Below are positions 4,030 through 13,613 of a stretch of 64,000 nt of DNA, one piece after another. The stretch lies in assembly GCF_018919265.1 (NCBI RefSeq), contig NZ_JAHLQO010000003.1, positions 124,001 to 188,000 of the forward strand, given 5' to 3'. The position numbers were made by a program, and so were the translations under genes. The notes below the pieces were generated by a model. It was not told the origin of the DNA and made no database searches. It worked only from the letters and a program-made list of their open reading frames with translations. Source of the DNA: Peptoniphilus ovalis. Lineage in GTDB: Bacteria; Bacillota; Clostridia; Tissierellales; Peptoniphilaceae. Within the stretch, counting starts at the first letter, position 1. Each line of letters starts with the position of its first letter.

Positions 4030-5556
4030 ATGGTTTTATATATTTTATTATCTGTAATTATTGGCTTAGCCATAGGCTATGCTGTTAGAAAATATATTTC
4101 AGAAGGAAAGATTAATAATGCTGAACAGATAGCTCAAAAACTAGTATATGAAGCTGAAAATCAGGCTCAAACACAAAAGAAAGTTTTACTTGTTGAAGCT
4201 AAAGAAGAAATTCAAAAGCTAAGAACGGAGCAAGAAAATGAAGCAAAATCTAGAAGAGCTGAAATTAAAGAAATGGAAGACAGACTTCTTGATAAGGAAA
4301 AACTTCTTGATAAGAAATCTTCACAGGTAGAGAAAAAAGATGAAAAACTTACTAGAAAATTAGAAGGCTTGAGAGAAAAAGAAGAAGCCGCAGATGATTT
4401 AGTTAAACAGAGAGAAGAAGAACTGCAAAAAGTAGCTGGACTTACTAAAGAAGAAGGTAAGGATATTCTTTTAAATGAACTTAGAAAAGAAATAACTAAT
4501 GAATCAGCACTAATTATTAAAGAAAACGAAAACAGAATTAAAGAAGAATCTAGTAAATACGCAAGAAATATAATTTCACAAGCTATCCAAAGATGTGCAG
4601 CTGATCAAGTAGCTGAATCTACTGTAGCTGTTGTTAATTTACCTAACGATGAGATGAAAGGTAGAATTATTGGTAGAGAAGGTAGAAATATTCGTGCCAT
4701 TGAATCTATAACAGGTGTAGACTTAATAATCGATGATACTCCAGAAGCGGTTGTATTATCTTGCTTTGACCCAATAAGACGTGAAATAGCAAGAGTTGCT
4801 CTTGAAAAACTTGTTAATGATGGAAGAATCCATCCAACAAAAATAGAAGAAACTGTTGAAAAGGCTAGATCAGAAGTCGAAACTATTATTAAGGAATCTG
4901 GAGAGCAAGCAGCTTATGATGCTGGAGTGCACGGACTTCATCCTGAAATTATTAAATATTTAGGTAGATTAAAATATAGAACAAGCTACGGACAAAATAA
5001 TTTAAAACACTCTGTAGAGGTTTCTGAAATTGCTGGTCTTTTAGCCAAAGAACTAGGAGCAGATGTCAAACTTGCTAAACGTGGAGGTCTTCTTCATGAT
5101 ATTGGAAAATCTATAGATAGAAATGTTGATTTACCACATGTTGATGTAGGCGTTGAAATTGCCAGAAAATACAATGAATCTGAATATGTAATTAACGCAA
5201 TTCAATCACATCATGGTGATGTAGAACCTAATTGCGTAGAATCTATCTTAGTTCAAGCTGCAGATGCAATTTCTGCTGCAAGACCTGGAGCTAGAAGAGA
5301 AACAGTTGAATCCTATATCCAAAGACTTGAAAAGCTTGAAGAAATTGCAAATGAATTTGATGGAATTGAAAAATCTTATGCAGTTCAAGCAGGACGTGAA
5401 GTTCGAATTATTGTAAAACCTGAAAAAATATCTGAAGCAGAAATAACAATTACCGCTAGAGATATTGTTAAGAGAATAGAAGCTGAACTAGATTTCCCAG
5501 GTCAAATTAAGGTAAATGTCATTAGAGAAACTAGAGCAGTTGAATATGCTAAATAA
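4030..5556 (+). CDS. rny: Ribonuclease Y
   Basis: 508 residues from the ATG at 4030, six bases after AGGAGG; the ATG at 4027 is too close to the ribosome site, and the farther TTG at 4012 lies upstream of it. Order of domains: N-terminal membrane helix (about 3-20), a long charged coiled coil to about 180, a KH domain ([15 protein letters not shown]) and an HD domain with His356-Asp357 ([10 protein letters not shown]) and the [10 protein letters not shown] segment. RNase Y is the membrane-anchored endonuclease that starts mRNA decay in Firmicutes. In many clostridia it follows recA; here it has moved beside lexA and has its own promoter and terminator, so it forms a single-gene unit. Confidence 0.96.
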
Positions 5557-5564
5557 TGTAATAG

Positions 5565-5593
5565 AGCCTGACTGTATGTCAGGCTTTTATTTT
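5565..5593 (+). terminator. Terminator after rny
   Basis: Stem AGCCTGAC/GTCAGGCT (5565-5572 with 5578-5585), 5-nt loop, then a T-rich tail. Confidence 0.88.
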
Positions 5594-5612
5594 TATATAA
5601 GTAGGTGAGAAA

Positions 5613-6590
5613 TTGATAAGTTCAAATTTAATTGACGATTTCCTTGATTATCAAAAATCTACAAAAGGACTTTCTGATAATACTATTAAAGAGTATTATT
5701 ACGACTTAAGAATTTTTGTTAGATTTGTAAAAAAAAGAAAAGGGTTAATAGAAGACGGAACTGATTTTGAAGATATAATTATTGAAGACATCACACCAGA
5801 ATTGCTAGAATCAGTTACAAAGCAAGATATTTATGCCTATAATGCATTTCTCGAGAAAGAGAGAAAAATAGGAAATAGGGGTAAATTTAGAAAGCTATCT
5901 TCGATTAGAAGTTTTTACAATTATCTATTTACTAAAATCGATGTAATTGATAAAAATCCTGTAGTAGATATTGATATGCCTAAAATTGAAAAAACTCTTC
6001 CAGTATACTTAACTCTGGAGCAAAGCAAAAATCTTTTAAAAACTATAGAAAACTCAAAATCAAAACCCATTTACAAAAAAAGAGATTATGCAATAGCTAC
6101 ATTATTTTTAAATTGTGGAATGAGACTTTCTGAACTTTCTGGAATTAATTTATCACATATTGAAAATGGAAATACTTTGACAGTTGTAGGTAAGGGAAAT
6201 AAAGAAAGGACTATATATTTAAACGAAGCTTGTATTCGAGCAATAGATGATTACTTAAAACTTAGACCTCAGGTCAAAGATGACGCACTATTTTTATCAA
6301 TGAGAGAAAATAGGATGAGCAATAGATCTATACAACATATGATTGAAAAACATATGAAAAATTCTGGGTTAGATACTACAAAATATTCAGTTCATAAATT
6401 AAGACATACAGCAGCAACATTAATGTATGAGTATGGTAATGCAGATATAAGATCACTTCAAGAGATATTAGGACACGAATCAGTAAATACTACAGAAATA
6501 TATACTCATGTAAATAAAAAATCTCTTAGGAAAATGGTTGAATCAAATCCTTTATCAAATCTAAATGCTAGTGAGGAGGAAGAAGAATAA
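5613..6590 (+). CDS. Tyrosine recombinase of the XerC/XerD type
   Basis: 325 residues with a TTG start after AGGTGAG. N-terminal SAM-like core-binding domain (about 1-110) and a C-terminal catalytic domain with the full residue set: Arg171 (GMRLSEL), Lys194 (VGKGNKER), His261 and Arg264 (HKLRHTA), His288 (LGHES) and Tyr297 (IYTHV). Xer recombinases resolve chromosome dimers at dif during division together with FtsK, which is also encoded in this window (16697). It is somewhat longer than the usual 300 residues and ends in a run of glutamates. No integrase-style neighbours or attachment repeats are seen, so a housekeeping Xer is favoured. XerC versus XerD cannot be decided here. Confidence 0.9.
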   Translation: MISSNLIDDFLDYQKSTKGLSDNTIKEYYYDLRIFVRFVKKRKGLIEDGTDFEDIIIEDITPELLESVTKQDIYAYNAFLEKERKIGNRGKFRKLSSIRSFYNYLFTKIDVIDKNPVVDIDMPKIEKTLPVYLTLEQSKNLLKTIENSKSKPIYKKRDYAIATLFLNCGMRLSELSGINLSHIENGNTLTVVGKGNKERTIYLNEACIRAIDDYLKLRPQVKDDALFLSMRENRMSNRSIQHMIEKHMKNSGLDTTKYSVHKLRHTAATLMYEYGNADIRSLQEILGHESVNTTEIYTHVNKKSLRKMVESNPLSNLNASEEEEE

Positions 6591-6711: not shown

Positions 6712-7016
6712 AAAGATTTTTGCTTTTTCTTGTTTTTTTGTCTTTTTCTATGATCTATTAAATTTTTAGATTTTCCCAAATTCATTTAAATAATTACTTC
6801 CAAAACACCCCCAAAATTAGGTTTTTATTCTTCCTTCATAGAAATTCCTCATTATATTAAATATTGTTTTAAAAAATATTTAGTCTTAATGTTAAAATTA
6901 TTATTATTTCTTTTCATACTTTTTTACTTTAATGTATTCATAACCCTTCTATAATTATTTTATATATTATACATTTGTTCTGAATATATGTTTAGATATT
7001 TTGTTCCCAATTATTG

Positions 7017-7025
7017 TGTTATAAT
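7017..7025 (+). promoter_or_regulatory. Candidate extended -10 promoter of rqcH
   Basis: TGT followed by TATAAT (7020-7025) with no good -35. It would place the transcript start almost on the ribosome site at 7031-7038. Confidence 0.45.
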
Positions 7026-7041
7026 ATCTAAAGGTGATCAA

Positions 7042-8763
7042 ATGTCTTTAGACGGTACTGTAGTAAAAAATTTAGTTTATGAATTTAATAATGAAATATT
7101 AAATGGTAGAATTGACAAAATCTACCAAAATAATAACAATGAAATATTAATCAACATAAGAGCACAAGGAAAAAAGTATAGACTTTTTATATCACTTTCT
7201 GGAAATCCTAGAATACATTTCTCTGTGCTTGAATTTGACAATCCTCAAAATCCACCAGCATTTTGTATGCTTCTTAGAAAACATTTAGAAAATGGTCAAA
7301 TTATAAGTATTGAACAGTATTTAATGGATAGAATAATTAAAATTAACATTAATTCAAGAGACGAATTAGGCCTAGATACAAGTAAAGGAATAATTGTTGA
7401 ATTAATGGGAAAATATTCTAATATTATATTAATTGATAATAATGATAATAGAATTATTGATGCACTTAAGAGAATAAATTTTAATGTTTCAAGTGTGCGT
7501 GAAATTTTACCTGGGCTAACTTATAATCCAAAAGATATTTCAAATGGAATTGATCCATGCGATGATATAGATATAACGGATCTAATAATAAAATATCCAG
7601 ATAATGTAAATATTAAGAGATTTTTATTAGATTCCTTTACTGGAATTAGTCCACAAATGTGCGAAGAAATATCTTATAGAAGTGGTCTTGATTTAAATAT
7701 TAATATTAAAGATTTAGAGGATAATGAGTTATCTATATTTTCTAAATCTTTTGATGAAATTTTTAGTTTAATAAAAACCTACTCCTTCTCTCCTATTAAG
7801 ATTTATAAAAATGAAATATTTAAGGATTTTTATTCAATAGATCTTCAAAATCTTAATAATAATGAAAAAGAGTTTCATGAAAGTATTTCAGAAATAATTG
7901 AAGAATTTTATAACTCAAAGAGTATTAGGGATTCAATAAGTTCAAAAAGTTCAAATTTAAAGAAAATTATTAATAAGGATATTAAAAAAATTTCTAGAAA
8001 GATTGCCAATCAATCAAATGAACTTAATGTAGCACTAAATCGTGAGAAATTTAAGATTTATGCAGATTTACTATCTTCTAATTTCTATAAAATCAATAAA
8101 GGTGACGAGAAAGTCCTTGTTGAAAATTTTTATGATAATATGAAAGAAGTTGAAATACCCTTAGATCCAACTCTTGACGGACCTCGCAATGCTTCCAAAT
8201 ATTATAAAAAATATTCCAAGTTAAAAAATGCTTCTATATATCTTGAAGAACAGATAGATTTAGGAAAAGCTGAATTAAATTATCTAAATTCAATTTTATT
8301 AAATATTGATATGGCTGAGAGCCCTGACGACTTTGATGAAATCTATGAAGAACTTGAAAAGCAAGGTTACATTAAAAAGAGAAATAGAAAATTAAAGAGA
8401 AAGAAAAACACCGAAGAAAACTATCTAATTTTTGAAACTGATGATGGTTTTAAAATTTATGTAGGAAAAAATAATAAGCAAAATGATTATTTGACGCTAA
8501 AATTTGCAAATAAAAAAGATCTTTGGTTTCATGTAAAGGATGCACCAGGATCCCATGTAATATTAAAAGATGATAATAGAAATTTTACAGATAAAGCATT
8601 AATTGAAGCTGCAAGACTTGCTGCGAAATACAGTTCCATTTCTACTTCATCAAATATTCCTGTGGATTACACATTTAAGGCTAATATAAAAAGACATCCT
8701 TCAAAGAAACCAGGATTAGTAAATTATACAAACTACAAAACTATAAATATAAAAAAAGAATAA
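7042..8763 (+). CDS. rqcH: RqcH / NFACT-family ribosome quality control protein
   Basis: 573 residues from the ATG at 7042, which follows AAGGTGAT; an upstream in-frame ATG at 6988 lies before the candidate promoter and is rejected. NFACT-N domain begins at MSLDGTVVKNLVYE; the Asp96-Arg97 pair (MDRIIKI) matches the functionally essential DR of this family. A helical/coiled middle follows, and the NFACT-R domain near the C-terminus has DLWFHVKDAPGSHV. Known role: RqcH binds the obstructed 50S subunit and recruits Ala-tRNA to add C-terminal alanine tails. Older annotations call it fibronectin-binding protein. The stop codon lies in a convergent terminator shared with yerC. Confidence 0.93.
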   Translation: MSLDGTVVKNLVYEFNNEILNGRIDKIYQNNNNEILINIRAQGKKYRLFISLSGNPRIHFSVLEFDNPQNPPAFCMLLRKHLENGQIISIEQYLMDRIIKININSRDELGLDTSKGIIVELMGKYSNIILIDNNDNRIIDALKRINFNVSSVREILPGLTYNPKDISNGIDPCDDIDITDLIIKYPDNVNIKRFLLDSFTGISPQMCEEISYRSGLDLNINIKDLEDNELSIFSKSFDEIFSLIKTYSFSPIKIYKNEIFKDFYSIDLQNLNNNEKEFHESISEIIEEFYNSKSIRDSISSKSSNLKKIINKDIKKISRKIANQSNELNVALNREKFKIYADLLSSNFYKINKGDEKVLVENFYDNMKEVEIPLDPTLDGPRNASKYYKKYSKLKNASIYLEEQIDLGKAELNYLNSILLNIDMAESPDDFDEIYEELEKQGYIKKRNRKLKRKKNTEENYLIFETDDGFKIYVGKNNKQNDYLTLKFANKKDLWFHVKDAPGSHVILKDDNRNFTDKALIEAARLAAKYSSISTSSNIPVDYTFKANIKRHPSKKPGLVNYTNYKTINIKKE

Positions 8764-8783
8764 AGGATTCCTTTATTCTTTTT
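8753..8783. terminator. Bidirectional terminator containing both convergent stop codons
   Basis: Fourteen-base-pair stem (8753-8766 with 8770-8783) with a 3-nt loop; A-rich on the left arm and T-rich on the right, so usable from both sides. The rqcH stop (8761-8763) and the yerC stop (8773-8775) are both inside the stem. Confidence 0.8.
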
Positions 8784-9090
8784 CTTCGTCTTCATCTATT
8801 ATATTTAGCTTTTGTAAAATAAGTTTGTATCCATCTGCTCCATAGTTAAGAGATCTATTAATTCTAGAAATAGTTGCAGTAGATGCTCCAGTCTCACTTT
8901 CAATTTCATGATAAGTCTTATTTTTTACTAAAAGTTTAACTACTTGAAGTCTTTGAGCGATCGCTTGAACTTCTTTAACCGTGCAGATATCTTCAAAAAA
9001 TCTATAACATTCTTCTAGATTATCTAAAAGTAGTATAGCTTCGAATAAATCGTCAACTTGTTCATTTTTAATTTTTGATTTGTAAATCAT
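8773..9090 (-). CDS. yerC: TrpR-like protein of the YerC/YecD family
   Basis: 105 residues with the family signature: IAQRLQVVKLL, a TYHEIESETGASTATISRINR helix-turn-helix, and LNYGADGYKL. It is a Trp-repressor-fold DNA-binding protein; the regulon of this family is not firmly known. In many Firmicutes the gene sits beside pcrA-ligA, but here it is about 50 kb away, behind the split Rad50 genes. The ATG follows GGAGG, and it has its own promoter. Confidence 0.88.
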   Translation of the reverse strand: MIYKSKIKNEQVDDLFEAILLLDNLEECYRFFEDICTVKEVQAIAQRLQVVKLLVKNKTYHEIESETGASTATISRINRSLNYGADGYKLILQKLNIIDEDEEKE

Positions 9091-9218: not shown

Positions 9219-9866
9219 TTATTCATAGATCTTTACTTCACTCACGCCATTTCTAATAGTAACTTGAAATGACTTGTCGCATATTTGTGACAAATGGGGA
9301 TTGTGAGTTACCATTATGATTTGTCTATTAAAAATCATTGATGACTTTTTTAAAAATTCTCCTAAATTAAAAATATAATCATTACTTACATGTTTTCCAG
9401 GTTCATCTAGAATTAATGGTCCAAGAAGTTCAGGTTGATTTAATTGCATAAATGCAATTCTAAGAGCTAAAGAAATAACATCTACAACTCCCCCACCTCG
9501 TGAAATTTCAGGTTGAGTTTTAACGCTATAACCTTCACTATAATTACTTTGAACAAAGAATTCAGCTACTGGAACTGATCTTGATTCAGATAGTTCTATG
9601 ATAAACTCAATATCTGTCTCAAATATAAATTGTAAGCACTTAGTAACAGTATCTTCAATTTGTCTTTTAGATTGCTCTCTAGCAAACTCTGAAGTTTTTT
9701 GAAACAATAAGGATACTTGCAATAAGATATCGCTGCATTTTTCTTTTTCAGAAAGATTTGTTTCTATGTTTTTTAGTTGTTCTTCTAAAATTTGAATTTT
9801 TCCCTCTTCAGATACTATTTTATTATTTAATTCTTGTAATTTTAAATCTAAATCATTTAAATTCAA
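9219..9866 (-). CDS. Split Rad50/SbcC-like ATPase, C-terminal half (signature motif, Walker B)
   Basis: 215 residues. An N-terminal coiled coil (about 1-70) leads to an ABC/SMC-type C-terminal ATPase lobe: signature-like ISRGGGVVDVISLALR (121-136), Walker B LILDEP (151-156, Asp154 and Glu155) and H-loop His188 (MVTHN). There is no Walker A in this ORF; that is supplied by the ORF at 10105-11556. The start is TTG at 9866, 4 nt after the stop of the 77-residue coiled-coil ORF, with AGGTTGTGAT upstream (the same ribosome-site form as before the Mre11-like gene). Together with its neighbours it should build one Rad50-like ATPase head. The role in DNA-end processing is inferred from the family. 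Confidence 0.82.
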   Translation of the reverse strand: MNLNDLDLKLQELNNKIVSEEGKIQILEEQLKNIETNLSEKEKCSDILLQVSLLFQKTSEFAREQSKRQIEDTVTKCLQFIFETDIEFIIELSESRSVPVAEFFVQSNYSEGYSVKTQPEISRGGGVVDVISLALRIAFMQLNQPELLGPLILDEPGKHVSNDYIFNLGEFLKKSSMIFNRQIIMVTHNPHLSQICDKSFQVTIRNGVSEVKIYE

Positions 9867-9870
9867 TTTA

Positions 9871-10104
9871 TCACAACCTAGGCATTAATTCCTCAGCTTC
9901 ATTAAATAATTTGTCAATTTCATCCTTTAAATTATTTATTTCGCTTTCTAAATCTTCTGGTTTTACTCCAAGTTTTTCTATTTCTTCAAGTATATCCTTT
10001 TTTTGGGCATTTAATTGTTCTAGTCTTGCTTCAGCTTTATATTTTAAGCTTTTTGCTCTATCTAGTTCTTCCTTTAAATTCTTTAAATTTTCTTCGTAAT
10101 TCAT
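9871..10104 (-). CDS. Short coiled-coil protein between the two Rad50-like halves
   Basis: 77 residues, almost entirely charged heptad-like helix with one break at KLGVKPEDLE (about 44-53); no catalytic motif. Its ATG follows the TAA of the upstream ORF with no bases between and in the same frame, so the two ORFs are divided only by that one stop codon. GAGG lies 9 nt upstream of the ATG, so independent translation is plausible. It probably forms part of the returning coil of the Rad50-like arm and may pair with the upstream half. It has no recognised family of its own. Confidence 0.7.
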   Translation of the reverse strand: MNYEENLKNLKEELDRAKSLKYKAEARLEQLNAQKKDILEEIEKLGVKPEDLESEINNLKDEIDKLFNEAEELMPRL

Positions 10105-11556
10105 TTAATCATTCCTCAAATGGTATTTTATATGTTCCAATGATTCATTATTTATTTCACTATAACAAAATGGACAAATTCCTTTTTTAATTATTAAATC
10201 TTCGTATTTATTTGAAAGAGATTTTATTTTAATATTAATATCCTTGTGCATATTTCTTGTTTCTTTATAATCATTTTCAAGTTTTAAAATATTATCATTA
10301 ATTCTTTTCACTAAATCCAATCTTGAAGATAAAGAATTTATTTTATTTAAATTCATTTCAATTTTTTCATTATTTTTAAATTTTTCTAAATAGTCATATC
10401 CAATTTTTAAAGATGAATTTACCTTTTTAATACTATTATTTAAATTTAAATTTTTATTAAAAACTTCTATTTTTAAAGATATATTGTTTAGTTTATTTTC
10501 AATTTCATTTAAATTTCTATAATTTTTTAATACATCTTCATTTCTTTTTAAAAGATTTTCATTAGTTATAAAATTATTTGAAAGTCTTTTATAATTTATT
10601 AGTTTATGATTTAAAGTTTCAGCAGATTTAATTTTATCTTCCAAGGTATTTAGGTTTTGCAAACTTTTTAGAGTATAATTTACCGAATTTAATCCTATAT
10701 TAATTTTATTAAATCTATTAAATATATTGCTAATATTTAAAAATTTAAGAGATTTATTTTCTAAATTTGAATATAATTTCTCAACTTCATCTATGGATTT
10801 TAAATTATTATGTAATACTTCTGTTTTAGAAATATTATCTCTATTTTCTTTATATCTATCATTTAAATTTTTTAATTTATCAAGTTTATCACTTAATTTA
10901 GAAATTTCATTTCTAATATTTAAAATTTTAGAATAAGAATCTTTATAATCTTTTATATATTCAAAGGATTTTAATTTTTCTTTATACCCTTCTTTCTGTT
11001 TATTTAATAAGTCAATATCTTGATTTATTCTTTTATTATCTCTTACAACTTCTCTTAACGCATCGTCAATATAATTTACACCAATTAACCTACCAATTGC
11101 TGAAGCTCTAACTGAAGGCTGCTCATTTAATAAAAACGGACCATCTAATTGCTCAGATATATTTAATATAGTTTTAGTATTTGAGCTATCTAAAACAGTT
11201 TTATACATATTTGTAATCTCAACTATTTCTTTAGGTACTTCTGTACCAAAACCTTCAAATCTCATTTCTTCACCAGATGGCTTTTGTAAATAATAGGCAT
11301 TTTTAGAAGGAGTTTTACTTCTCTCAACAACTGCACCGTTAGAAAAAGTTATCTTAACAGAAACATTTTTCTCTCCCTGTCTTATAAAATAATCTCCCCT
11401 AGGTTCATTGTATAATGCCCATTTTATAGCTCTTAAAATAGCAGTCTTACCAGAATCTGAATTGCCAAGGATTACATTTAATCCCCTATCAAATTCAATA
11501 ACTGTATCTTTATGAGATTGAAAATTATGAAGTTCAATTTTATCTATATAGATCAT
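10105..11556 (-). CDS. Split Rad50/SbcC-like ATPase, N-terminal half with C-terminal zinc-type motif
   Basis: 483 residues. The N-terminal ATPase lobe starts IELHNFQSHKDTVIEF, with Walker A GNSDSGKT at 31-38 and a Q-loop-like LLNEQPS near 150. A long Asn/Lys-rich coiled coil follows (about 175-455). The protein ends with CPFC at 461-464 and HIKYH at 475-479, a C-x2-C-x10-H-x3-H set that could bind zinc. Canonical SbcC/Rad50 has a central CPxC hook and both ATPase halves on one chain of about 1000 residues; here the chain ends just after the hook. It overlaps the Mre11-like gene by 4 nt and has only a weak ribosome site, so translational coupling is likely. Confidence 0.85.
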   Translation of the reverse strand: MIYIDKIELHNFQSHKDTVIEFDRGLNVILGNSDSGKTAILRAIKWALYNEPRGDYFIRQGEKNVSVKITFSNGAVVERSKTPSKNAYYLQKPSGEEMRFEGFGTEVPKEIVEITNMYKTVLDSSNTKTILNISEQLDGPFLLNEQPSVRASAIGRLIGVNYIDDALREVVRDNKRINQDIDLLNKQKEGYKEKLKSFEYIKDYKDSYSKILNIRNEISKLSDKLDKLKNLNDRYKENRDNISKTEVLHNNLKSIDEVEKLYSNLENKSLKFLNISNIFNRFNKINIGLNSVNYTLKSLQNLNTLEDKIKSAETLNHKLINYKRLSNNFITNENLLKRNEDVLKNYRNLNEIENKLNNISLKIEVFNKNLNLNNSIKKVNSSLKIGYDYLEKFKNNEKIEMNLNKINSLSSRLDLVKRINDNILKLENDYKETRNMHKDINIKIKSLSNKYEDLIIKKGICPFCYSEINNESLEHIKYHLRND

Positions 11557-12530
11557 ATATAATCAGCCCCATCAATCTGAGCTTTTTCAACTCTTTTAAG
11601 TGATTCTTTTTTAACTTCATCAGAAATATTTTCACTTTCAGAAATCTTTAGTAACAAATTAAAAATATCCATGCTGTTAAAATTTGAAGTTGCATCAAGA
11701 CTTTCTTTAAATTCAGCCATCTTTATTCCCTTAAATTGATGTCTCTCCATTTCAGTCCTATCAAGTACTTCTTCACCTGGTTTTGCACATTTTAAATATC
11801 TGTCTTCTATTTTTATTTCATCATCAAGTGTAATAATATTTATTTTAGGCTTTCTTTTCATTTCGGTTAAGGAATTTGAAATTCTAATTAGTGCACCGGG
11901 ATTAATAAAATATTTACCATCTATTTTAGTCGTTTTAAATCCAAAGTGATAATGACCTGCAAGTGTAATATCTGCTTTTGTGTCCTTAATATCTTCAAGT
12001 AATGTATGTGAAACTTCTTTGACAAAGGGTTTATCTATTAAAAATCCATGTGTCATATGAATAGAATATTTACAATCACTATCTACATTTCTAACAATAT
12101 AATTTTCTCTATTGCTTTTTTCATCCATAGAATAAATATAAGGTGAAGCAGTTAATTGAACTTTAAAGTCTTTCTCAAGAATAATTTTTTTATAATTTAC
12201 AAGATTTAGAATACCTAAATTGCATAGGAGTCCTAACATTGTTCTATCAAGAGTATCTGGATTATGTCCGAATATGTCATGGTTCCCACTAACTATATAA
12301 ATGGGAACTTTATAACTTTGAAATATTTTTGCAAACTCAGATACAATACTAACAGACACATCAGGCCTATCAAATAAATCTCCACCATGAAGAACAAAGT
12401 CAATATTTTCCTCTTTTATAATATCGCCAATTTCTCTAAGCTTTGTTTTTAAAGTTTCACTATAATCATCTAAACGATTTTTAGGACTAGTTCCTCTAAT
12501 ATGAGTGTCTGTAAAGTATAGTAGCTTCAA
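11553..12530 (-). CDS. Mre11/SbcD-like metallophosphoesterase
   Basis: 325 residues with the calcineurin-like nuclease motifs in order: Asp8-x-His10 (FTDTH), GDLFDR with Asp51, GNHD with Asn83-His84, MTHG and GHYH. The C-terminal part (about 235-325) is longer and less conserved and may be the capping or Rad50-binding region. The start is TTG after GAGGTTGTGAT, only about 15 nt downstream of recA. It is followed by the two-part Rad50-like ATPase, so it is best read as the nuclease subunit of that complex, cutting DNA ends or hairpins. A strict orthology to SbcD is not claimed because the partner is so different. Confidence 0.88.
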   Translation of the reverse strand: MKLLYFTDTHIRGTSPKNRLDDYSETLKTKLREIGDIIKEENIDFVLHGGDLFDRPDVSVSIVSEFAKIFQSYKVPIYIVSGNHDIFGHNPDTLDRTMLGLLCNLGILNLVNYKKIILEKDFKVQLTASPYIYSMDEKSNRENYIVRNVDSDCKYSIHMTHGFLIDKPFVKEVSHTLLEDIKDTKADITLAGHYHFGFKTTKIDGKYFINPGALIRISNSLTEMKRKPKINIITLDDEIKIEDRYLKCAKPGEEVLDRTEMERHQFKGIKMAEFKESLDATSNFNSMDIFNLLLKISESENISDEVKKESLKRVEKAQIDGADYI

Positions 12531-12545
12531 GTAATCACAACCTCA

Positions 12546-13613
12546 TTAATCTTCTAAAAAGTTTTCCTCACTAGTTACATTTTCATTATCTTCTTCAGGA
12601 GTTTCTTCTCCATTTAAGTTAAAGTGAACTCTAACTTTTTCTTCAATTTCTTTTAGCATTTCTGGATTTTCTTCTAAGAATTCTTTTGAATTTTCTCTAC
12701 CTTGTCCAAGTCTTGTTTCTCCATAAGAATACCAGGCACCAGCTTTTTTAACAATTTCTGCATCAGCTGCAACATCAAGAATATTTCCAACTTTAGAAAT
12801 TCCTTCACCATACATAATGTCAAATTCAGCTTGTTTAAAAGGTGGAGCAATCTTGTTTTTAACAACTTTTACCCTAACTCTGTTACCTATAATATCGTCG
12901 CCTTTTTTAATATTTTCAGATTTTCTAATATCAAGTCTAACAGATGAATAAAATTTAAGCGCTCTACCACCAGTTGTAGTTTCTGGGTTACCAAACATAA
13001 TACCAACTTTTTCTCTAAGTTGATTTATAAATACAACTGTACATTTAGATTTATTAATAGCTCCTGTTAATTTACGAAGAGCTTGAGACATCAAGCGAGC
13101 TTGAAGTCCAATTTGTGTAGCCCCCATCTCTCCATCAATTTCAGCCTTAGGTACAAGCGCAGCCACAGAGTCAATTACAATTAAATCAACAGCATTTGAT
13201 CTTACCAATGCTTCTGTTATTTCTAAAGCTTGTTCTCCTGTATCTGGTTGAGAAATAACTAGGTTTTCAATATCTACACCAAGATTTTTCGCATATCCTG
13301 CATCAAGAGCATGTTCAGCATCAACAAAAGCACCTGTTCCGCCTAATCTTTGAGATTCAGCTAACATGTGAAGAGCAAGAGTTGTCTTACCTGAAGACTC
13401 AGGTCCATAAATTTCAATAATTCTTCCCTTAGGAATACCACCAATTCCAAGAGCGATATCAAGAGCAAGAGATCCTGTAGGAATAGATTCAATGTCTAAT
13501 TTGACATCTTCACCAAGTCTCATAACTGCTCCCTCACCAAATTGTTTTTCTATTCTTGATAAAACTTTATTAAGAGCTTCCTGCTTTTCATCAAAATTAT
13601 TTGTATCTTTCAT
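12546..13613 (-). CDS. recA: Recombinase RecA
   Basis: 355 residues. Walker A GPESSGKT at 70-77, [16 protein letters not shown] Walker B, the [12 protein letters not shown] and INQLREKVG loops and an acidic C-terminal tail are all present. RecA forms the filament for strand exchange and stimulates LexA self-cleavage; lexA is 10 kb away on this window. The ATG follows AAGGAG. It lies only 9 nt after cinA with no LexA-type box seen in the junction, so SOS control of recA, if any, must act through a promoter farther upstream or inside cinA. Confidence 0.98.

Follow-up and report, generated by a model that had tools for sequence, protein, structure and literature searches.

A candidate Mre11-Rad50-type complex with Rad50 divided over three chains, encoded next to recA in Peptoniphilus ovalis

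Gene arrangement at the locus

The 64,000-nucleotide stretch of Peptoniphilus ovalis DNA analysed here (positions 124,001 to 188,000 of contig NZ_JAHLQO010000003.1; hereafter the window) carries, directly behind recA, four genes that very probably encode a single complex of the Mre11-Rad50 (MR) type, replacing SbcCD, in which Rad50 is made as three chains. These genes are designated MRE (the nuclease), NH (the N-half of Rad50), COIL (a small coiled-coil subunit) and CH (the C-half of Rad50). The grounds for this reading are the homology of the pieces, their linkage and order, the motifs that they carry, a zinc hook at the end of a chain, the near-absence of SbcD over its cut-off from the genomes concerned and the existence of a natural fusion.

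The order on the minus strand is cinA, recA, MRE, NH, COIL, CH (Table 1), recA, cinA and rny having been named by Pfam. There is a 4-base overlap between MRE and NH, COIL follows NH without a gap and 4 bases separate COIL from CH; this tight spacing is counted in favour of one four-gene complex. The three Rad50 pieces belong to separate PHROGs families of matching length, NH to phrog_16465 (491 positions; 8.9e-69), COIL to phrog_18563 (77 positions) and CH to phrog_15167 (211 positions). The original prediction, made from the letters of this DNA, placed a nuclease and a split ATPase in these open reading frames (ORFs); its coordinates agree with ours, and the order recurs both in relatives and in a separate census. 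An SOS box (GAACNNNNGTTC, at most one mismatch) is not enriched in the window (12 matches, 13.5 expected).

Table 1. Positions in the window of the four genes, their main elements and their neighbours
Feature	Position	Strand	Basis
recA	12546-13613	-	Pfam RecA 1.1e-141; directly upstream of MRE, same strand
MRE, Mre11/SbcD-like phosphoesterase, 325 aa, TTG start	11553-12530	-	Pfam Metallophos 6.7e-14
NH, Rad50 N-half, 483 aa (lobe I, long arm, terminal hook)	10105-11556	-	Pfam AAA_23 4.2e-24
ATPase lobe I of NH (~residues 1-165; Walker A, Q-loop region)	11062-11556	-	Invariant residues in 67 NH
Ascending helical arm of NH (~residues 166-458)	10183-11061	-	AlphaFold helices
Four 47-residue repeats, NH residues 255-442	10231-10794	-	Autocorrelation, phase, helix breaks
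CPFC zinc-hook motif, NH residues 461-464; 19 residues then chain end	10165-10176	-	Invariant 67/67
COIL, small coiled-coil subunit, 77 aa	9871-10104	-	phrog_18563 2e-7
CH, Rad50 C-half, 215 aa, TTG start (N-terminal helix 3-82, lobe II)	9219-9866	-	phrog_15167 6.2e-64
GGG of ABC signature region, CH residues 124-126	9489-9497	-	Invariant in 56; aligned near 3aux signature region
Walker B LDEP, CH residues 153-156	9399-9410	-	Motif and alignment
H-loop histidine 188 of CH (TH 187-188)	9303-9305	-	Invariant in 56
YerC-type gene, after CH	8773-9090

The nuclease and the two ATPase lobes

Conservation was read from alignments of 67 rows (A1: the window and 66 of the 74 long NH), 56 rows (A2: 55 of 79), 32 rows (A3: 31 of 70), again 32 rows (A4: 31 of 77) and 28 rows (A5). 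MRE carries the complete metal motifs of a Mre11-type nuclease (DTH at residue 8, GGDLFD at 49, GNHD at 82, THG at 160 and GHYH at 192), with D8, H10, D51, N83, H84, H161, H193 and H195 invariant in 32 aligned sequences, and the first match of its profile in the PDB is Pyrococcus furiosus Mre11 (1ii7, 4e-8).

The Walker A and Q-loop of a Rad50 lobe I are both found in NH, the former at residues 31-38 and the latter in the region of residue 134, and N11, F12, Q13, S14, H15, G31, G36, K37 and Q136 are invariant in the 67 aligned NH. The NH profile first matches the Rad50 N-lobe (3qkr_A, 3.6e-12), and the AlphaFold model of NH, which like that of CH is a single-chain model (predicted local distance difference test, pLDDT, 78.8; predicted template modelling score, pTM, 0.32), has its best Foldseek match in Rad50 (1f2u, 6.4e-7).

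CH contains the Walker B, D-loop region and H-loop of a Rad50 lobe II. Its Pfam matches are solely of ABC type and lie under the Pfam cut-offs; the first PDB match of its profile is the Rad50 C-lobe (3aux, 7.9e-9). With the AlphaFold model (pLDDT 88.6, pTM 0.69) Foldseek returns an SMC head first (5h66, 1.4e-8), followed by Rad50 (3qkr_B, 1f2u). By fold alone CH is an SMC/Rad50-type lobe; its sequence favours Rad50. The ATPase motifs are, as had been claimed, on different chains, with Walker A on NH and GGG, Walker B and H-loop on CH.

A zinc hook at the end of NH

The cysteines and the proline of the hook motif (C461, P462 and C464) are among the 26 invariant columns of the alignment of 67 NH, and among the 80 genome loci every NH with 420 residues or more has CPxC close to the end of its chain. 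The broader pattern C[PA]xC was found in 201 of 209 NH (75/79 bacterial, 61/62 from the census including the window, 65/68 viral), beginning 14-29, 17-32 and 6-22 residues before the chain end, respectively. Of the eight NH that lack it, seven are fragmentary ORFs (70-148 residues), and in two of these (L013 and L062) CPxC is in fact present, ahead of the position limit; the eighth is a viral NH of 368 residues (L160) without CPxC.

When a profile of the last 83 residues of NH (28 sequences) was searched against 177,635 PDB sequences, Rad50 hooks came first (1l8d, 5e-7; 6zff, 1.4e-6), with CPxC placed on the hook, and a RING-finger chain came next (2.6e-5). The invariant CxxC motif and these top matches are those of an MR zinc hook. 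Because an invariant CPxC lies near the end and hooks are matched first, the NH chain stops just past the Rad50 hook, the return arm and lobe II being placed on COIL and CH. A C2H2 zinc finger, considered on account of the histidines that follow CPFC in the window, was rejected, as these histidines are not conserved and hooks are found first. The description of NH as a Walker A protein with a long coil was correct as far as it went; the terminal hook, and the repeat described below, had been missed.

Arm repeats, arm length and the COIL subunit

The AlphaFold model of NH has helices at 162-196, 199-298, 302-345, 350-391 and 396-458. Self-comparison of the arm in 161 sequences gives peaks at lags 47, 94 and 141, and the hydrophobic pattern averaged over 135 arms recurs at 47, with a dominant period of 3.37 residues. 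The four repeats of the window's NH begin at residues 255, 302, 349 and 396, and the long helix is broken in the model at 299-301, 346-349 and 392-395; since model and repeat share sequences, this is agreement and no independent proof.

The 135 NH longer than 400 residues, trimmed to the profile start, fall into length classes of 429-445 (30), 476-490 (102) and 529-532 (3), with CPxC positions clustering at 408-422, 456-469 and 508-515; NH length thus shifts in steps of ~47 residues. A modulus test on the lengths scores 48, 47, 49, 46 and 50 nearly alike and fixes no exact step, so that the value of 47 rests on the repeat. An apparent further class of ~576 (L236) was due to an over-long ORF start and fell to 532 once trimmed. 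The lengths of COIL and CH do not grow with the NH class. The arms had been predicted to be of unequal coding length and are so, the NH helices spanning ~162-458 as against COIL and helix 3-82 of CH.

COIL is conserved in aligned relatives and is present at all 63 census places at which MRE, NH and CH are separate genes. That it is a chance coil-forming ORF was considered and rejected: of 80 viral loci, 41 have a small coil-like ORF that ends at CH and 3 have one just after CH, while among small ORFs overall 123 of 1262 are coil-like. A profile of 28 divergent viral coil ORFs matched bacterial COIL at 95% and two NH arm segments at 1.7 and 0.5%; it also matched the N-terminal helix of CH at 89%, and for this reason plain coil similarity may account for the match between viral ORFs and COIL.

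Distribution and linkage to recA

A C-half search of genome contigs gave 260 relatives, the best 80 of which were kept as loci; they come from Peptoniphilus, Tissierella, Caloramator, Thermosediminibacter, Alkalicoccobacillus and others, and the order recA-MRE-NH-COIL-CH, often followed by rny, recurs among them. Over 81 loci (these 80 and the window's own, L001, several ending at contig ends) best BLAST matches were obtained for recA in 75, MRE in 76, NH in 80, COIL in 78, CH in 81 and rny in 70. COIL is unmatched in three of these loci, two of which, L031 and L032, carry a coil ORF in its position. The median distance between recA and MRE is 32 bp (74 loci).

Because the 80 loci had been picked by similarity, a census was made with phrog_15167 over 398 genomes of the phylum, taking E <1e-20 as a strong CH. 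Such a CH occurs in 65 genomes, at 68 places and in 26 GTDB families (counted by hand). The four genes are together at 63 of the 68 places: 58 have the order MRE-NH-COIL-CH, one has the same order with NH in two ORFs and four have NH-COIL-CH-MRE. Of the remainder, three are one-chain fusions of MRE, NH and CH and two lie at contig ends.

The predicted tie to recA held in part. It is seen at 24 of the 68 census places, at 23 of which recA lies <1 kb from MRE, and in 30 of the 80 phage loci the genes are paired with a RecA-like gene; at the other 44 census places recA is not on the fetched stretch, some of these being cut by contig ends. Since the stretches reach at most ~7 kb upstream and some stop with the contig, 24 of 68 is a lower bound. 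The recA-linked places, which belong to 8 families, also show rny. The adjacency to recA is real but lineage-specific.

Nor is this a locus of one strain that is disrupted elsewhere, an outcome that the original prediction had set against its own reading: the relatives are mostly intact, broken copies being those of L002 and L077 (MRE), L034 and L256 (NH), L073 (several genes) and L128 (short MRE and CH). These few copies, together with the resemblance of consecutive ORFs to a broken long gene, could suggest a degenerate sbcC that mutation has split into pieces and that is heading for loss; we consider this scarcely credible, as the same breaks are found in 26 GTDB families and in phages, the catalytic and hook residues are invariant and each piece has a PHROGs family of its own. 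Conservation rules it out.

Some copies deserve separate mention. In L256 (genome G341, a single contig) NH is in two ORFs and the rest of the recA-MRE-NH-COIL-CH operon is complete. In L013 (Peptoniphilus harei, 6466 bp) the operon end occurs twice, in opposite orientations and with its ORFs broken, which may be an artefact of assembly. Three genomes of family f38 have two copies each (L126/L236 in G108, L245/L127 in G295 and L249/L128 in G070); in a tree of 109 rows, including 20 of the 80 named and 22 of the 80 viral loci, L236 groups with the phage-type lineage and the other two second copies group with a separate clade.

Phages, plasmids and mobile copies

Among the best 80 of 113 viral relatives, NH is matched in 69 loci, MRE in 67 and NH, MRE and CH together in 66. 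A RecA-like gene occurs in 31, in 30 of which the three others are also present; COIL is matched directly in 11. MRE and NH are fused, with CH separate, in five loci, two of which (L137 and L139) are near copies; one such fusion is in L130, a viral contig of 218,948 bp in which COIL and CH are genes of their own. NH-CH fusions were not found among the 80. In Bacillus phage vB_BboS-125 (L209, NC_048735.1) an AP2-domain gene (5155-5727), perhaps a homing-type insertion, lies between NH and COIL, and the MRE gene (6995-7975, 326 aa, MRE profile 3.3e-83) is without an annotated feature. Microcystis phage Mvi-JY20 (L279, 2559-7807) has, in a row, genes for a RecA-like protein, NH and MRE, then a coil-like ORF and CH, each of which bears the annotation hypothetical protein. 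In the one public Streptococcus phage with a weak NH match that was examined (L278) no CH or MRE match was found.

CH is also present in nine plasmid records, and four genome copies are of the mobile type (L123, L236, L237, L255). The CH of L255 (genome G386) is identical in the tree to that of viral contig L134, and this copy therefore most likely sits in a prophage. Because the variant is spread over both phages and chromosomes, it is probably old.

These occurrences bear on the alternative that a phage-derived recombination or defence cassette was domesticated beside recA and serves a function other than break repair, such as defence or plasmid or phage replication. Divergent phage versions beside RecA-like genes, the mobile-type copies including L255, the plasmid records and PADLOC matches such as LmuB on NH (3.2e-16) are in keeping with such an origin; the chromosomal lineage, on the other hand, follows taxonomy in the tree, lies between recA and rny in 8 census families and hardly co-occurs with SbcD, and the PADLOC matches of MRE (3.9e-6) and CH (1.1e-7) are weak, so that we hold this alternative to be improbable. 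COIL matched at 0.0013, and the gene set gave no strong full-length match to the known anti-phage defence systems of PADLOC.

One-chain fusions

In three genomes of GTDB family f54, from two genera, one ORF of 684-700 residues encodes MRE, lobe I of NH and lobe II of CH in succession, the arm and CPxC being missing. This chain retains the motifs of the nuclease along with Walker A, GGG, Walker B and H-loop. In the tree the fusions are a single clade (100/100) that lies among the split chromosomal genes, with a weak nearest fork (80/69) and wider forks of 83/96 and 90/83, and the one-chain form looks to have arisen later, by fusion and loss of the arm. No relative of it was found in viral contigs. 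The natural fusion ties MRE, NH and CH to one machine; no COIL match lies on the 11-kb stretches around the three fusions, and since these also lack the arm, COIL is suggested to belong to the arm.

Relation to SbcCD in the same genomes

The window proteins lie under the curated SbcC, SbcD and Rad50 cut-offs of NCBIfam, and none is a single-chain SbcC/Rad50: MRE scores 42.2 bits with TIGR00619 (SbcD; cut-off 77.65) and NH 79.1 with PRK03918 (cut-off 700). A canonical sbcC elsewhere in the genome would have spoken against the proposal as first made; neither SbcC nor SbcD was found over its cut-off in the genome of the window, the SbcC cut-off being a strict one that 1 of 14 control genomes passes, and the best TIGR00618 score there is 29 bits (cut-off 478.5). 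Elsewhere in this genome are a YhaN-like gene (G000:C4:7643-7804; AAA_27, 44.6 bits) and an AddA-like gene with a match below its cut-off.

SbcD (TIGR00619) is over its cut-off in 162 of the 398 genomes, namely in 2 of the 65 with a strong CH as against 160 of the 333 others (Fisher p 7e-14, a guide only because the genomes are related). Both exceptions, G097 and G386, have a mobile-type CH (L123 and L255). If genomes with mobile-type or contig-end copies (G097, G209, G386, G156 and G082, a choice made after seeing the data) are moved to the other group, the counts become 0/60 and 162/338. For the 65 genomes with a strong CH, SbcD calls were made from E-values read by hand, and a rerun of nine doubtful or excluded genomes agreed with them (2 of 9 over the cut-off, G218 being the nearest below it). 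Within family f26 SbcD is over the cut-off in 0 of 3 genomes with CH and in 6 of 9 other listed genomes. The four-gene system thus seemingly stands in for SbcCD in its chromosomal lineage. Phosphoesterase genes with frames of 440-458 aa, present in CH genomes at G218:C31:20832, G117:C7:25123 and G382:C5:128935, match the first part of the SbcD model only, just below its cut-off.

Architecture and proposed function

Taken together, the locus is a real and widespread variant of the Mre11-Rad50 system, to which a putative function can be given by homology and linkage, and the proposal of a distinct MR lineage is supported. That its head may be assembled from separate subunits, as was also proposed, is favoured by homology, the fixed layout and the natural fusion. 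In the complex that we infer, assembly, stoichiometry, enzymatic activity and biological role included, NH would supply ATPase lobe I together with the outgoing arm, tipped by the zinc hook; lobe II and the base of the returning arm would come from CH, and COIL would serve as a dedicated arm subunit and MRE as the nuclease. By homology, ATP would be sandwiched between two NH-CH heads at their Walker A and signature surfaces, and the heads would act as a clamp on DNA ends and as a gate for MRE, which may open or trim blocked or hairpin ends, RecA loading following thereafter; hooks paired at the NH tips may tether DNA or dimerise the complex.

Several observations weigh against one or another element of this reading. 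On fold alone, CH is closest to an SMC head, and its signature is SRGGG and not the usual LSGGE, GGG being invariant near the aligned place. Two of the 3 fusions have glutamate in place of the Q-loop glutamine. The absence of SbcD is that of matches over one hidden Markov model cut-off in genomes that are related and not independent; a separate match in G218 reaches 73.7 of the 77.65 bits, over the first 88 positions only, and SbcC was searched in the window's own genome only. Finally, ~297 helical residues on NH face a COIL of 77 and part of CH helix 3-82, and therefore an antiparallel coil with one copy of each chain in a 1:1 ratio does not fit; there may instead be several copies of COIL or arm-to-arm pairing.

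These alternatives can be cast as a refinement compatible with the four-subunit complex, in which the NH-CH head has an arm that is not antiparallel, NH arms pairing with one another or several COIL lining one arm to give a rod and not a loop. The unequal coded lengths of the two sides, the 47-residue repeat with its period of 3.37 and the NH length classes without lengthening of COIL or CH lend themselves to this idea; the model of NH, on the other side, is that of a single chain with a pTM of 0.32, and we regard the rod as a serious possibility, although not the expected outcome. Somewhat more tentatively, Bacillota chromosomes, plasmids and divergent phages could share a second, old Rad50 architecture whose chain ends at the hook and whose arm is a modular rod of 47-residue repeats evolving in length by whole units, lined or braced by COIL or paired arm to arm, with no return strand on the same chain, one lineage having become an armless and hookless fusion of ~700 residues. 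If this is true, tethering by the hook would be dispensable and the head and the nuclease would not.

The role of the long arms and hook of Rad50 is a long-standing question, hard to test on one shared chain. Here the hook with the outgoing arm, the return-arm subunit and the second lobe are separate genes, which could be mixed, omitted or swapped with little engineering, and natural arm-length classes ~47 residues apart, together with the armless, hookless fusion, offer matched comparisons. An annotation gap is filled as well, in that an MR complex can be present in Bacillota whose genomes show no SbcD over the curated cut-off; the cassette of the named phage L279 is annotated throughout as hypothetical proteins.

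Comparison with known systems

SbcC/Rad50 normally carries both ATPase lobes, both coil arms and the hook on one chain. The system described here resembles Mre11-Rad50 and SbcD-SbcC (3aux, 3qkr, 1l8d, 1ii7) in its nuclease motifs, lobes I and II, CPxC hook and adjacent genes, and differs from them in that Rad50 is made as three chains, broken after the hook, a COIL subunit is added, the arm is built of 47-residue repeats, the signature is SRGGG and the proteins score below the curated cut-offs. YhaO-YhaN is a nuclease and SMC-like ATPase pair of Bacillota; unlike the YhaN-like gene elsewhere in the genome, NH remains below the AAA_27 cut-off (20.3 vs 22 bits). Phage T4 gp46 is one chain, whereas in the phages of this analysis Rad50 is split and COIL separate.

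T4 gp46/gp47 is a phage Rad50-Mre11 pair, and Mre11/Rad50 fusion proteins, including those of Anaerostipes and Bacillus phage 0305phi8-36 without one P-loop segment, have been described (Yoshida et al. 2011, PMC3175470). The nuclease is likewise joined to a Rad50-like part in 3 census genomes and 5 viral loci of the present analysis; the window genes differ from the fusions of that article in being unfused, and a separate C-half or COIL is not reported in the available part of it (PMC3175470). Viral MRE-NH fusions with a separate CH, such as L130, would fit the fusions without one P-loop segment as far as these are described there (PMC3175470). The split of Rad50 would offer an explanation for the missing segment in the two fusions. 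Among the papers listed in searches of the open literature, none was found, judged by titles and the beginnings of abstracts, to treat a Rad50 split over chains.

A structural parallel is given by crystals of the P. furiosus Rad50 head (1f2t/1f2u/1ii8), which contain separate N and C chains (A and B). There the chain split is man-made, whereas here it is natural; the heads of 1f2t and 1ii8, being made of an N and a C chain each, show that a head can be built from two chains.

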